In this document: piece by piece, positions 29,560 to 35,610 of the stretch
Layout: the number at the start of each line of letters is the position of its first letter
Numbering within the stretch: position 1 is the first letter of the stretch
Assembly: GCA_025354985.1 (NCBI GenBank)
Contig: JANXLU010000056.1
Location: forward strand, 1 to 63,185
Direction of reading: 5' to 3'
Source: Chloroflexota bacterium
GTDB taxonomy: Bacteria; Chloroflexota; Anaerolineae; J036; Brachytrichaceae
Length of the DNA: 63,185 bases
Position numbers and translations under genes: made by a program
Notes under the pieces: generated by a model
The model's input: only the letters and a program-made list of their open reading frames with translations
The model's database searches: none
What the model was told of the DNA's origin: nothing

Positions 29560-29565
29560 TATAAT
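29560..29565 (+). promoter_or_regulatory. -10 box TATAAT for the XPB operon
   Basis: A perfect TATAAT preceded by CGC. TTGATT occurs upstream with only 12 nt spacing, too short, so the -35 is unclear. Transcription from here gives a leader of about 50 nt before the ATG at 29625. The leader is T-rich and lacks a Shine-Dalgarno site. Confidence 0.5.
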
Positions 29566-29624: not shown

Positions 29625-31544
29625 ATGCTGAATTACAATCCGCAAAATCCGGTAATCGTGCAGGGCGACAAAACAGTTCTGCTTGAAGTTGACAGTCCCC
29701 TCTATCCCGAGGCGCGTGACATGCTTGCGCGGTTTGCCGAGCTTGAGAAGAGCCCGGAATATGTGCACACGTATCGAATCACCTCGCTCTCGCTGTGGAA
29801 CGCGGCTGCGGCCGGGCTGACTGCCCGGGTCATCATTGACGGGCTGGCACAATATAGCAAATATCCCCTTCCCGACAACGTTCGCTTTGATATCGCGGAA
29901 CAGATTGGACGCTATGGCCGGATAAAAATTGTGATGCACGAGGGCAGGTTATTGGTCATAAGCGAAGACCGCGTACTGATGGAGGAGGTAAGTCGTCACA
30001 AACTCTTTCAGCCCCTTATTTCCAGCCGGCCAAATGCCACCACGTTTGAGATCGATCCCGGTCAACGCGGTCATGTCAAGCGCATCCTGCTGCAAATTGG
30101 TTACCCTGCGGAGGATTTGGCTGGTTACAACGAGGGCGCGCCACTGCCGCTTGAGCTGCGCGGGTTGGCTGCAAGCACAGGCGCACCGTTTGAGCTGCGC
30201 CACTATCAGTCGGATGCGGCGGATGTGTATTGGGCGGGTGGCGGCGAGTCGGGCGGCAGCGGCGTGATCGTATTGCCGTGCGGCGCAGGCAAAACTATTG
30301 TGGGCATGGCCGCCATGGCCAAAGTGCAAACCGCCACGCTGATTATTTGCCCAAACACGGTGGCCGTCCGCCAATGGATGCGCGAGTTGCTGGATAAGAC
30401 CACGCTCAGAGAGGACCAAATTGGCGAATATACCGGTCTAAAAAAGGAAGTGCGACCGGTCACGGTTTGCACGTATCAGGTGCTCACTCATCGACCTAAA
30501 AAGGGCAAAAAACTGATCACGGAAGCGGCCAGTGCGAATGGCGAAGGAACAGGGTTGGACCAGGATCAGACTGGCGCACAGGCGACCGCCGAAATAGAGG
30601 GCCGCGAGGCCGCCGAATACTTTCGCAATGCCGGGCCGCGTAGTGGCGGGCTGAAGAAGCTGCCCAAGCTGAGTGAGTATCCACACATGCAGATTTTTAC
30701 CTCGCTGGATTGGGGGTTGATCATTTACGACGAGGTGCATTTGCTGCCCGCTCCCGTATTTCGCATGACCGCCGAGATTCAGGCACGCCGACGCCTCGGT
30801 CTTACCGCCACTCTGGTGCGCGAGGATGGCGCCGAGGGTGAAGTATTTTCTCTGGTCGGCCCAAAGAAGTACGATGTGCCCTGGAAAGATTTGGAAAAAC
30901 AGGGCTGGATCGCAACCGCCGAATGCCACGAAATTCGTGTGCAGATGGATGATGAGGATCGCATGGAATATGCGGTCACCCAGCACGACTTGAAGTATCG
31001 GTTTGCCGCGGGCAACCGCAAAAAGCTTGGCGCATTGTCCATGATCGTCAGCAAACATCGTCAGGATCAGGTGCTGGTCATCGGCCAATTTTTGGATCAG
31101 CTCGATGTGATCGCAAAGCGCCTCCAGGCTCCGCTGATTACCGGTGAAACCCCGATTCGCCAGCGCGAGATTTTGTATCAGCAGTTTCGCACGGGTGAAG
31201 TGACCACATTGGTGATGAGCAAGGTTGGTAATTTTTCAATCGACCTTCCGGACGCCAGCGTATTGATACAGGTGAGCGGCATGTTTGGATCGCGTCAGGA
31301 AGAGGCGCAGCGGCTCGGTCGCGTGTTGCGCCCAAAGGCAAACGGGTTGCTGGCTCATTTTTACAGCATCGTCACCCGTGACACACTGGACCAGGACTTT
31401 GCCGCCAAACGACAAATGTTTCTGACCGAACAGGGTTACCACTACGACATTTTGTATGAGAACGAGGTAGAGGCGTTCCAGCCGGCACTGATTGCAACCG
31501 ATGCCGCGCCTGTGCGCCGAACCGTGGCCGGGTTTCTAAATTAG
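29625..31544 (+). CDS. XPB/Ssl2-family DNA helicase (SF2)
   Basis: A 639-residue DNA helicase related to eukaryotic XPB, the repair and transcription translocase. An N-terminal damage-recognition-like region (YVHTYRITSLSLWNAAAAG) leads to RecA lobe 1 with VLPCGAGKT (Lys near 223) and YDEVH (near 369), then RLGLTATLVREDG, and lobe 2 with VLVIGQF and GSRQEEAQRLGRVLRPK (motif VI). The extra segment between motifs Ib and II (about residues 310-350, rich in Gly/Glu) is typical of bacterial XPB. The ATG at 29625 gives the usual N-terminus; the longer open frame starts with a TTG inside the promoter. It heads an operon with two helicase-associated proteins. Confidence 0.92.
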   Translation: MLNYNPQNPVIVQGDKTVLLEVDSPLYPEARDMLARFAELEKSPEYVHTYRITSLSLWNAAAAGLTARVIIDGLAQYSKYPLPDNVRFDIAEQIGRYGRIKIVMHEGRLLVISEDRVLMEEVSRHKLFQPLISSRPNATTFEIDPGQRGHVKRILLQIGYPAEDLAGYNEGAPLPLELRGLAASTGAPFELRHYQSDAADVYWAGGGESGGSGVIVLPCGAGKTIVGMAAMAKVQTATLIICPNTVAVRQWMRELLDKTTLREDQIGEYTGLKKEVRPVTVCTYQVLTHRPKKGKKLITEAASANGEGTGLDQDQTGAQATAEIEGREAAEYFRNAGPRSGGLKKLPKLSEYPHMQIFTSLDWGLIIYDEVHLLPAPVFRMTAEIQARRRLGLTATLVREDGAEGEVFSLVGPKKYDVPWKDLEKQGWIATAECHEIRVQMDDEDRMEYAVTQHDLKYRFAAGNRKKLGALSMIVSKHRQDQVLVIGQFLDQLDVIAKRLQAPLITGETPIRQREILYQQFRTGEVTTLVMSKVGNFSIDLPDASVLIQVSGMFGSRQEEAQRLGRVLRPKANGLLAHFYSIVTRDTLDQDFAAKRQMFLTEQGYHYDILYENEVEAFQPALIATDAAPVRRTVAGFLN

Positions 31545-31551
31545 CTCAGCC

Positions 31552-33801
31552 ATGGCACGCACACGCCCGACCGGACTCGACCCAACTGATTTGGACTTCC
31601 TGCTGGATGACGACGACCTGGAGGACTTGAGCGAAGAAAAGCTGCTTGAAATCTTCGAGGCGGCGGGTCTGCCAGAGGTCATGGGGTTGCCATCCGGGGA
31701 AATGGTTTCGATGCAAGGTATCAAGGATGTCATCCGCAAACATGCGGCGGAAATCCCGAGCATGACACCCGAGAAGTTTTCGGCTCTGATCATGAACGAA
31801 CTGTCGCAAACCACGCCCGGGAGTCAACGGGGAAAACTTGCTGCTGCTGCCACGCTCCCTTGGCCGGTGGCAAGCGGCTTCCGGCCCCAGAACGAGCCAT
31901 TCACAAACATCCTGGACGCGGAATTCAATGCGACTGGTCTGCGCGAGCTCGCCAAATTTTATGATATCAAGCTAAAGGGCAGCCTGAAAAGCGCGCTACT
32001 GGAGCAGGTGGCGACCGGGATAACGGAACGTTTGGCGCAGACGCAAACCGACCCCAAAGCGGTGCTGACCGGGCTTACCGATGCCCAGGCATTGTTGTTG
32101 CGCAAGTTGTTTACGGCTTGGGATCCCGAGCTTCCTTTCCCACGCGGGATGGTCAAGTCCCTGATGCAAACCGCGGATGAGAAGCAGGTTACCGAGCTTC
32201 TGGAGTGGATGCGCAAGCACGCGATTTTGTTTCCCGCCCGGACCTACAGCTATTACATCAGCCTGCGGGATGCCTACTATCAGCTGTTGCCGGTTGGTTC
32301 GCTCGCACCATATCTGCCGGGCATCGTGTGGCCCCCGGATCTTTGGTCTGGATCAACATCCGACATGCGGGTCGAACAGCCGGCTTCTTTACCTCTGCTT
32401 GAAGCAGTTGATCGATGGTTGGACGCCGCCCACACCGGCGCCGTTGTTCTGCGCACACCATCACCCGCCCATGACCGCGCCGCGCAAACAAACTGGTTGC
32501 AACGTTGGGAGCACGACGCCGGTGAGGCGGGTCGCGTGTTCGCCAGCCGGCCGGGGTGGGTGCCCGATTCACGCAGCAGTATTTCTGTGCCGCAGGTGCC
32601 GCCGCTCACTCCGGATAGCGCGCAGGTATTGGAAGGGCAGACTGGCTTGAGCGCAGATCAATGTCACTGGATGCTGCCACTGATCGGAGCGCTCCAGTTG
32701 ATTGAGCCACCTGCCAGGGACCGCGTCAGTCGCACGGTGAACGTGGCAAATATCGGGTTCGAAACCTGGCTTGCCACACCTGCCGAGCATCGGCTTCGGC
32801 GGGTGTGGGTAGCTTGGCTGGAACAGGTCCCCGAAGGAGTCGAAATTGTCTTAGCGGGCAGACGGTCAGTAGGTGGTTCGGCGCAGGCGTTCAAGGTTTT
32901 GCGCGCAATTGGCGCACATGACTTTACGCCCCAGCAGCTCGCCGCGGAATGGTGTGGGCTTAGACGCTACCTGACCCGGGTACTCCGGGGTCTGCCGCCA
33001 CACACATGGATAAGTTGGCCGCTACTGCGGACTCAGCTTTTTGGCTTGCGCCCATTGTGCGCGCACACGCTCAAAACCACCGATGATTGGTGGTTTGGGC
33101 GCGCCGATGGCGCTCGGCTTATGGATGTCAAGCAGGATGACTGGAACCGTTCGACCGGCTTAATCCTGGAAACCATGATTCAGACGTCGTTGGTCTGGTT
33201 TGGTGCGGTGGTGTGTGCTCTGGCAAGCGATGGATCATTGGGCCGGCTGATGATCACGGAAACGGGCCGCTGGTTGCTAACCAACCAGGATTCACCGCTG
33301 CCACCCGGTTCTGTTCCCAGGGCGCGCGCCGATGAACCACCGTCCTGGGTGGGCGACCTGACCTGGCGCGTGCCACCATCACCAAACCGGATAGAGTTTA
33401 TTGCGCTCAGTCGCAAGCTTGGCGAGCCGGCTGATCAGCCGTTCAGCTATCGTTTAACGACGCACTCGATCGAGTTTGCACTGGCGCAGGGACTATCCAT
33501 GGATTTGGTTCAGGCCCAGTTTGACCATGCCGGGATTCCGCTCACTACGGCGGCGCGCGGTTTGATTAATGAGCTGGCCGGTCACTTTGGCCGGCTGCGC
33601 GTGTACGAAGGACTGACGACGCTCGAATTAACGGATGAATTGGCCTTGCGCGAACTGCTGGCCAGCACATCTCTTTCTCAGGCGGTTATAGCCCAGTTGT
33701 CACCCCGCTCCATCGTCATTCGTGATGACGCGGTTGATGCTCTGGTGGCGGAAATGATTGCCCGCGGGCATACCCCCAAGGTGGAGGAACCAACAAGTTG
33801 A
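31552..33801 (+). CDS. Large helicase-associated protein, first XPB partner
   Basis: A 749-residue soluble protein with an acidic N-terminus (LDDDDLEDLSEEKLLEIFEA). The middle resembles SAP-like or winged-helix segments (TGLRELAKFYDIKLKGSLK). The C-terminal third (about 540-740) has the pattern GRLMITETGRWLLT, PSPNRIEFIALSRKLGE, YRLTTHSIEFALAQGLS and INELAGHFGRLRVYEG, which looks like the helicase-associated (Helicase_C_3-type) domain of actinobacterial proteins next to XPB. The same pattern recurs in the next gene, so the two are probably distant paralogs. It begins 7 nt after the XPB stop. No enzymatic motif is recognised; a DNA-loading or scaffold role for XPB is inference. Confidence 0.68.
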   Translation: MARTRPTGLDPTDLDFLLDDDDLEDLSEEKLLEIFEAAGLPEVMGLPSGEMVSMQGIKDVIRKHAAEIPSMTPEKFSALIMNELSQTTPGSQRGKLAAAATLPWPVASGFRPQNEPFTNILDAEFNATGLRELAKFYDIKLKGSLKSALLEQVATGITERLAQTQTDPKAVLTGLTDAQALLLRKLFTAWDPELPFPRGMVKSLMQTADEKQVTELLEWMRKHAILFPARTYSYYISLRDAYYQLLPVGSLAPYLPGIVWPPDLWSGSTSDMRVEQPASLPLLEAVDRWLDAAHTGAVVLRTPSPAHDRAAQTNWLQRWEHDAGEAGRVFASRPGWVPDSRSSISVPQVPPLTPDSAQVLEGQTGLSADQCHWMLPLIGALQLIEPPARDRVSRTVNVANIGFETWLATPAEHRLRRVWVAWLEQVPEGVEIVLAGRRSVGGSAQAFKVLRAIGAHDFTPQQLAAEWCGLRRYLTRVLRGLPPHTWISWPLLRTQLFGLRPLCAHTLKTTDDWWFGRADGARLMDVKQDDWNRSTGLILETMIQTSLVWFGAVVCALASDGSLGRLMITETGRWLLTNQDSPLPPGSVPRARADEPPSWVGDLTWRVPPSPNRIEFIALSRKLGEPADQPFSYRLTTHSIEFALAQGLSMDLVQAQFDHAGIPLTTAARGLINELAGHFGRLRVYEGLTTLELTDELALRELLASTSLSQAVIAQLSPRSIVIRDDAVDALVAEMIARGHTPKVEEPTS

Positions 33802-33816
33802 TGCTAAAACAAGGAC

Positions 33817-35610
33817 GTGTGCGGGTTGGCTGAACCAGTTGTGCTTACGGGCAATGCCTACGAATTTCAACGCGATTTGGGTCGTTATTGGCGTCATGTC
33901 AGACGCAGCGCCGGCATAAATGTGACCGCCCAGGGTTGGATTTACAAGAATGCGTTCAAGGGCCTGCTTGCCGCCTTAAACGTTGCGGGCGAGGCGCCGA
34001 CGGATGAGAATTTGAATGGCCGGTTTTGGTTTATGCGCCGGCTGTTAACCGTCTCGGGTGACCTTGATTCCAAATTTGCCGCCGCGGTTATGACGTCTCC
34101 AACAATGCAGATGTTGGACAAAGCGTTACCCGAACGGATCAGGTATTGTTTTGATGCCTGGCGGGATTTGGCTATTTGGAACGAGGTGTATCGCGTTTCC
34201 GCGGGGATGGAATATGATCCACGCGCGGTGCAGAATCCACCGGAGCTGGCGCGTGCGCGCCAAATATTTTTGCGCACACTTGCAAAACTGCAATCCACGC
34301 GCTTGTCAGACTGGGTGCCTTTTGAACGGCTTGTGGATGATCTAAAGCGCAACAACTATGACTGGTTGTTTCCGCGCAATTTCAAGGGTCGCAAACTCAA
34401 GGGCGGTACCGTTTACTATCAAACGCCCTACTATTACAACAACAATCCATATTCGATCACGTTTACAAACGTCAAGAGTGAAAGCCAGGGCTGGGATGTG
34501 ATCGAGCGCTCGGTCATGGCGTTGATGCTCTCCGGGCCACTTGGCTGGATGGGGATCGTGGACGTCACTTATACCGCGGCACATCCGGATGAGCGCGCAG
34601 CTCCGACCGCAGTAAAGCTTACCCCGGTGGGGTCCTGGCTGTTGGGCTTGACCGCCCAACCGGAATTTCCCGAGACCGGCGGGCGTTTGGTGGTGCAACC
34701 AAACTTTACGGTCATCGCGATTGAACCAATCGCGGACGCCATTTTGGTGCAGTTGGATGGTTTTGCGGATGTGACTGGTGGTGACCGGGCCATCAACTAT
34801 GTGATCACCCGTCAGAGCGTGTATCGTGCCCAACGCGAGGGAAAGTCCATCGCAAGCATTGTGGCGCTGCTTGAAACCCACAGTGGCTTGCCCCTGCCGG
34901 CCAACGTGCGACGGACCTTGGAGGAATGGGATGAGCAGCACGGTCGCATCACATTCCATCGCAAGGCACACCTGGTTCAATTTGCCGATGACGCAGCGTT
35001 GCAGGGCGCGCGTGGTGCGCTCGGTCACGACAACGTCCACGTTATTGCACCTGGCTTTGCCCGCGTATCCCGCGACGTTGCCGATCCCATTGGCGCGCTG
35101 GATGACGCAGGCTGGTCTCCGCTTGTAACGCACGGTCAAAAATCCGATGCAGCGGGGTCGCTGGCCCTTGATGAATCCGGAAGGATCACCTTCTTAAACT
35201 CGGTGCCCAGCATTTATTCAGTGGGCGCGGTGGCGCCCTTTGCCGAGGGTAGTCCGGTGCCAAACCACATCACCGCCAACAGCGTCCGCACGGCTATGAC
35301 GCAGGGCCACAAGCTTGAAAAAATGCTGGATGCGCTCGAGCGTGCCTCGGGTGCCAGCCTGCCAAAAAAACTGGAAACCAATCTGCGCACGTGGGCGGGT
35401 TTTTACGGCCAGGCCACCATGCAGCCGGTTATTCTTCTCGAGCTCAGCAGTGCCGAGGTGCTGGCCAATCTGGTTGAGGCCAGGGAGTTGCGCGGCTACG
35501 TAACGGCCATCCCGGGTAGTGCCACACCGCTGGCCGTGGTGAACGCCGAACACGCCGATGAGGTGCGATCGGCGCTGGCTGAGCGCGGCGTGGTCATTAT
35601 TGACAAATGA
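33817..35610 (+). CDS. Helicase-associated domain protein, second XPB partner
   Basis: About 597 residues. The C-terminal half has the helicase-associated signature GGRLVVQPNFTVIAIEPI, YVITRQSVYRAQREGKS and TLEEWDEQHGRITF, close to the domain found beside XPB helicases in Actinobacteria. The N-terminal half is hydrophilic with Trp/Arg-rich segments (RDLGRYWRHVRR). The GTG at 33817 is the longest start; a TTG at 33826 has better spacing to AAGGA (33811-33815) and may be the true one. The gene follows the 749-residue protein by 15 nt and completes the three-gene XPB operon. No catalytic residues recognised. Confidence 0.68.
   Translation: MCGLAEPVVLTGNAYEFQRDLGRYWRHVRRSAGINVTAQGWIYKNAFKGLLAALNVAGEAPTDENLNGRFWFMRRLLTVSGDLDSKFAAAVMTSPTMQMLDKALPERIRYCFDAWRDLAIWNEVYRVSAGMEYDPRAVQNPPELARARQIFLRTLAKLQSTRLSDWVPFERLVDDLKRNNYDWLFPRNFKGRKLKGGTVYYQTPYYYNNNPYSITFTNVKSESQGWDVIERSVMALMLSGPLGWMGIVDVTYTAAHPDERAAPTAVKLTPVGSWLLGLTAQPEFPETGGRLVVQPNFTVIAIEPIADAILVQLDGFADVTGGDRAINYVITRQSVYRAQREGKSIASIVALLETHSGLPLPANVRRTLEEWDEQHGRITFHRKAHLVQFADDAALQGARGALGHDNVHVIAPGFARVSRDVADPIGALDDAGWSPLVTHGQKSDAAGSLALDESGRITFLNSVPSIYSVGAVAPFAEGSPVPNHITANSVRTAMTQGHKLEKMLDALERASGASLPKKLETNLRTWAGFYGQATMQPVILLELSSAEVLANLVEARELRGYVTAIPGSATPLAVVNAEHADEVRSALAERGVVIIDK

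Follow-up and report, generated by a model that had tools for sequence, protein, structure and literature searches.

We analysed a 63,185-nucleotide stretch of DNA from a Chloroflexota bacterium (contig JANXLU010000056.1; the window), in which the gene of an XPB helicase is followed by the genes of two large proteins, here called partners A and B. Together the three products probably make up a bacterial XPB-p52-like module, with A and B as docking partners and regulators of XPB. This reading is based on the homology of their PF13625 domains (one in XPB, one in A and two in B), the paralogy of A and B, their conserved linkage and co-occurrence with XPB, their profile similarity to the TFIIH subunit p52, and the sharing of a residue equivalent to p52 Arg348. 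According to parts of a study of human TFIIH (PMC6422496), the N-terminal domain of XPB and the clutch of p52 share a fold and form a pseudo-symmetric pair that recruits XPB. When a profile pooled from A, B and the single partners of other bacteria was searched against the PDB, the best match was human p52 (E 3.4e-10, p52 residues 265-457), with XPB at 2e-9; all 13 matches under E 0.001 were XPB or p52/Tfb2, and the alignment with p52 went past the clutch on both sides. These sequence comparisons suggest that A and B are distant relatives of p52 and that the pairing of an XPB motor with a regulator may predate eukaryotes.

The XPB helicase and its paralogous partners

The XPB gene (29625-31544, forward strand; 639 amino acids) likely starts with the ATG at 29625, the mechanical list of open reading frames (ORFs) giving a TTG at 29565. 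Its product is a full member of the NCBI XPB family, scoring 828.1 bits against NF045503 ('DNA repair helicase XPB'; cut-off 610), with Pfam matches to PF13625, ResIII and ERCC3_RAD25_C (the last at 4.8e-48) and with yeast and human XPB as its closest PDB matches. A profile of its N-terminal PF13625 domain (29652-30017, forward strand; E 2.3e-36) matched PDB sequences of yeast and human XPB with E values of 1.3e-19 to 7.8e-18 and, judged by such matches, the domain corresponds in bacteria to the N-terminal domain through which XPB pairs with p52 in TFIIH. The genes of A (31552-33801; 749 amino acids) and B (33817-35610; 597 amino acids) follow on the same strand after gaps of 7 and 15 bases, respectively, all three lying within 6 kb in the window's ORF list. 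A sequence-only reading of this DNA had described XPB and two large partners in this arrangement, which the ORFs confirmed.

Partners A and B are, by profile alignment, paralogues over most of their length: the A-family and B-family profiles aligned over 526 columns (hhalign, 99.9%, E 1e-35), and window B was matched by single A relatives with phmmer E values down to 1e-11. The alignment supports the earlier view of two diverged paralogous partners of XPB and shows that the motif order noticed in both (TxxGxWLL, a PN strand, YxIT/YRLTxxS and GR) is real. The likeness had been placed in the C-terminal thirds; the likeness stands but this limit does not, because the 526 aligned columns and the phmmer matches extend the homology more widely.

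The Pfam gathering cut-off for PF13625 (Helicase_C_3), 34.2 bits, was exceeded at the protein level by XPB (122.5 bits) and B (103.8 bits), while A scored 32.9 bits as a protein, just under it, and 36.5 bits in the genome search. PF13625 is the sole Pfam family found in A and in B at E ≤1; A has it as a single C-terminal domain (33445-33696, forward strand; E 1.4e-8); the XPB-domain profile likewise found one copy in A, and the A-domain and XPB-domain profiles aligned at 99.0%. In B, two copies stand in tandem, B1 (34687-35007, forward strand; E 2.2e-17) and B2 (35269-35496, forward strand; E 2.7e-11), and because the A/B profile alignment stops past B1, the second is an extra copy at the C terminus. 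Profile-profile comparisons showed the domains of XPB, A, B1 and B2 to be mutually homologous. Of the 26 B proteins taken forward, all but one (25) had two copies by the XPB-domain profile (the second below 10 bits in five), and 23 A proteins each had one (below 10 bits in three). Directly before B1 lies a segment (GPLGWMG...LTPVGSWLLG; 34492-34647, forward strand) that is likely a winged helix, as judged from its sequence; the part of the pooled profile matching this segment aligned with p52 from residue 265, ahead of the clutch.

At the N terminus of some distant A relatives (L042, L044 and L056; rows placed by eye) a SWIM-type Cys/His pattern was observed. The Pfam SWIM zinc finger matched 3 of the 11 A-family rows, and window A had no Pfam SWIM match and no such Cys/His pattern in the alignment.

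Occurrence of the partners with XPB

Among 301 Chloroflexota genomes, an XPB of this type was present in 55, hand-picked from 74 matching genomes, the other 19 matching in the helicase part only (110-143 bits). Neighbouring A-B pairs were found in 30 of the 301 genomes, all 30 with XPB, which in four of them (G124, G129, G244 and G272) was present only as pieces. Nine genomes had the complete trio in one place, arranged XPB-A-B, and A adjoined XPB in 12; in G026 the contig end fell inside B, in G129 B lay beside XPB, and in other genomes the A-B pair lay on another contig or far from XPB. The 35 genomes with a listed A match span 11 families, and named cases of the trio come from metagenome-assembled genomes of Thermoflexus hugenholtzii and of a second member of the Chloroflexi (L036 and L037).

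The A set used for pairing comprised matches of at least 128 bits, to which two weak matches adjacent to B genes (G153 and G129) were added; G088 (140 bits; a lone gene matched by both profiles, without XPB) was left out, and G192 (127 bits, without XPB) fell just below the threshold. Because this set held only genomes with XPB, the pairing script being unable to find pairs in XPB-free genomes, we put weight on the 30 neighbouring pairs and not on the 35 strong A matches. Among the matches listed, read by eye, no genome lacking XPB had A and B as neighbours, and XPB-free genomes with PF13625 had single relatives, often of 550-700 amino acids. A lone PF13625 protein of 550 amino acids is also encoded elsewhere in the window's own genome (L005 1420-3072, minus strand).

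Outside the Chloroflexota, one partner was found beside or near XPB in Arthrobacter (L124), Paenibacillus (L121) and Tsukamurella (L122; 3.5 kb away) and on three Deinococcus plasmids (L118, L119 and L125), in keeping with the sequence-only reading, which had mentioned one helicase-associated protein beside XPB in Actinobacteria. A profile of nine single partners, named and unnamed, aligned with the B family over 486 columns (99.9%, E 1.5e-34), and this 'helicase-associated domain-containing protein' of Actinomycetota, Bacillota and Deinococcota belongs to the same family as B over most of its length. Unlike A and B, the single partners are encoded by one gene and have one PF13625 stretch, with an extra C-terminal tail in several. 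The tails in L050, L051, L053, L122 and L124 look WYL-like by motif; Pfam WYL gave one weak match, in L050 (E 0.087).

On the three Deinococcus plasmids a small ORF lies between XPB and the partner (L118 9746-10093, L119 9762-10061 and L125 5759-6088). Two of these, as translated (115 and 99 amino acids), resemble the C-terminal half of the PF13625 domain of A, one aligning with A's domain at 90.3% (hhalign, E 1.5e-6), and the ORF may perhaps encode a split-off subunit. On a plasmid of the cyanobacterium Gloeocapsopsis (L120 6125-7999), a protein of 624 amino acids with PF13625 slightly under the cut-off is encoded directly upstream of XPB. No relative was found in viral contigs, and in two loci of haloarchaeal plasmids, where annotation is incomplete, no annotated partner lay beside the XPB-like helicases.

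Similarity to p52 and rival explanations

Of the two partners, B is the more p52-like. The B-family profile that includes the segment before B1 had human p52 as its top PDB match (E 5.9e-6); the B1 profile, searched against 177,635 PDB sequences, matched human XPB at 3e-5 and p52/Tfb2 at 1.5e-4 to 3.5e-4, and the B2 profile matched human XPB at 4.8e-9, human p52 at 3.8e-5 and a designed repeat protein at 8.6e-5. Alignments of the human p52 fragment reached 96.6% with the pooled partner profile, 94.4% with B, 74.5% with A and 61.9% with the XPB N-terminal profile, a ranking that is a hint only, because the profiles differ in diversity. In addition, the Pfam family Tfb2 (PF03849) gave 14 matches at E ≤0.01 in 13 of the 301 genomes and none in 14 controls. 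Thirteen of these matches are members of the partner family (nine B genes of A-B pairs and four others), and the remaining one (G249, with an internal stop) looks like noise. The 13 family matches start at positions 244-248 (seven), 260-267 (four) and 281-283 (two) of the Tfb2 profile, in which PF13625 starts at about position 291. In the B-family alignment, which omits the B proteins of L056 (N run and frame break) and L057 (early end), 6 of 10 rows matched Tfb2 at E ≤5, the best at 4e-7.

Human p52 Arg348 contacts Glu397, and a yeast triple mutant including the equivalent of Arg348 is lethal without TFB6 and mildly slow with TFB6, according to sections of PMC9557730. The residue aligned with Arg348 is Arg332 of B (codon at 34810-34812, forward strand), an arginine in all ten B-family alignment rows. 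Arginine occupies this position in 9 of 12 B1 domains (lysine in 2) and in one domain each among 10 from A and 10 from B2. It is absent from the 7 single-partner domains and the 2 domains of eukaryotic XPB, and none of the 12 bacterial XPB domains has arginine or lysine there. Tryptophan at p52 Trp394, a position chosen after the alignment had been inspected, is found in 12/12 B1, 10/10 B2, 4/10 A, 1/12 XPB and 0/7 single-partner domains.

In a tree of 59 domains (tree 1), human and yeast XPB fell within the bacterial XPB domains (support 99/96), and a group with 98/98 support joined human p52, all 12 B1 domains and one partner domain from Deinococcus. In tree 2, built from another alignment with five long rows removed (S_L118, S_L121, A_L043, X_L121 and B2_L085), p52 again grouped with B1 (95/88). 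As p52 is represented by one sequence on a single long branch and rival placements were mostly not rejected, this grouping is a lead and not a proof. It may be, though we hold it only tentatively, that the XPB-p52 pairing is of bacterial descent, with no living relative nearer to the XPB-p52 module than an XPB plus B-type operon, p52 derived from the B line, the XPB of TFIIH derived from a bacterial-type XPB with the N-terminal domain, and the Chloroflexota later elaborating two p52-like subunits.

Several results weigh against a p52-like module. The A-only profile matched XPB (8e-4) but no p52 in the PDB. The Tfb2 gathering cut-off of 34.5 bits was reached in none of the 301 genomes, the best family member scoring 31.4 bits, and window B had no Tfb2 match at E ≤5. 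Glu397 and the interface tyrosines of p52 are not conserved in B1, and the predicted models, made from three-row alignments (window, L036 and L037), were of low confidence, with a predicted local distance difference test (pLDDT) score of 42.6 for B and 35.7 for A. Rival placements of p52 were mostly not rejected (p 0.07-0.32 in tree 2; 0.20 and 0.017 in tree 1); for example, forcing p52 to group with A, B2 or the single partners cost 2.2-4.0 log units in tree 2 (p 0.17-0.32). The C-terminal half of the PF13625 domain looks like p8, but its profile matched neither p8 nor p52 in the PDB, so that a link to p8 is unsupported. Finally, XPB of this type is missing from 47 of the 102 Chloroflexota genomes that match PF13625. 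The sequence-only reading had asked whether homologs occur mostly without XPB, and the outcome was mixed: no listed A-B pair does, but strict dependence of PF13625 relatives on XPB is weakened by these 47 genomes and by a Singulisphaera plasmid, where a relative stands in a displayed stretch of 12 kb without an annotated XPB.

Alternatively, A and B might share only the clutch-type domain with p52, p52 being a separate eukaryotic copy of the XPB N-terminal domain and A and B being docking adaptors of their own kind that are not specially akin to p52, an explanation that we consider unlikely. Since homology unites all four kinds of domain (XPB, A, B1 and B2), any of them might match p52 weakly; the lack of p52 among the matches of the A-only profile fits this explanation, as do the trees, in which uniting p52 with all XPBs cost 5.6 and 4.5 log units (trees 1 and 2) and was not rejected (p 0.20 and 0.32). 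However, making p52 the sister of the two eukaryotic XPBs (human and yeast) cost 14.6 and 14.8 log units and was rejected in tree 1 (p 0.017) and not quite in tree 2 (p 0.073). The pooled profile, which ranks p52 over XPB and aligns past the clutch, the Tfb2 matches, which begin before it, and the two residues, Arg348 common to p52 and B1 and not to XPB domains, and Trp394 common to p52, B1 and B2 and rare in XPB domains, argue in the same direction.

Two further explanations appear far less probable. The sequence-only reading had proposed a heteromeric loader or clamp, that is, a ring-like assembly of A and B putting XPB on DNA, as two diverged paralogues beside one helicase might suggest. 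Nothing here supports this proposal, which we regard as improbable: neither window A or B nor the Pfam matches listed for the 11 A-family and 10 B-family rows include a clamp or AAA+ loader family, the sole shared domain serves protein docking in TFIIH, and the evidence favours the XPB-p52 clutch. An anti-phage or other defence system with an XPB-like motor seems more improbable still. The XPB resembles the PADLOC family PbeA (E 7.3e-23), as might be expected between related helicases, but for A and B the PADLOC models gave nothing at E 0.01, and the kept gene order of the family, with the A-B pair kept away from XPB elsewhere, would be unlike a mobile island.

Proposed function and genomic setting

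In the XPB-p52-like module that we favour, B, and by paralogy A, would consist of a long N-terminal part with a winged-helix-like end, after which come clutch-type PF13625 domains, one in A and two in B. The PF13625 domain of XPB would dock sheet to sheet on that of B or A, as XPB does on p52 in TFIIH, and the remaining copies might join A to B or embrace the second RecA domain of XPB; the four domains would allow two pseudo-dimers, e.g. one between XPB and a partner domain and one between the remaining two partner domains. According to parts of PMC7708078, p52/p8 both activate XPB and limit its ATPase rate. By analogy, we infer that B and A form a complex with XPB, anchor it through paired domains and control how fast it hydrolyses ATP and how it uses DNA, the task of the module most likely being DNA opening in repair or transcription. 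Should A and B prove p52-like, studies of bacterial XPB would so far have lacked its regulators, a bacterial system of two or three proteins could show how a p52 holds and throttles XPB, and the origin of part of TFIIH would become testable. We found no report of a bacterial p52 in the open-access literature, subscription papers and preprints being outside the scope of the search.

The trio resembles the XPB-p52(-p8) part of TFIIH in that XPB carries an N-terminal clutch-type domain and the partner has a homologous domain following a putative winged-helix segment, with sequence similarity at the profile level. Unlike TFIIH, it has a pair of partner genes, one of which encodes two clutch-type domains, and in the ORF list no separate gene resembling p8 stands among XPB, A and B or immediately next to them; other TFIIH subunits were not searched for. 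As in the archaeal XPB-Bax1 system, XPB has a dedicated partner. Bax1 is a nuclease, according to parts of PMC13024598 and PMC7672443, and, in contrast, the Bax1 family PF05626 (DUF790) had no match in the window's genome and matched 4 of 14 controls, which agrees with the earlier remark that no nuclease motif is seen in the partners.

Promoter and terminator scans gave results at chance level. Judging from names read off the translations, a MoxR-like ATPase gene and two more genes lie upstream of the trio on the opposite strand, and succinate dehydrogenase genes lie downstream.

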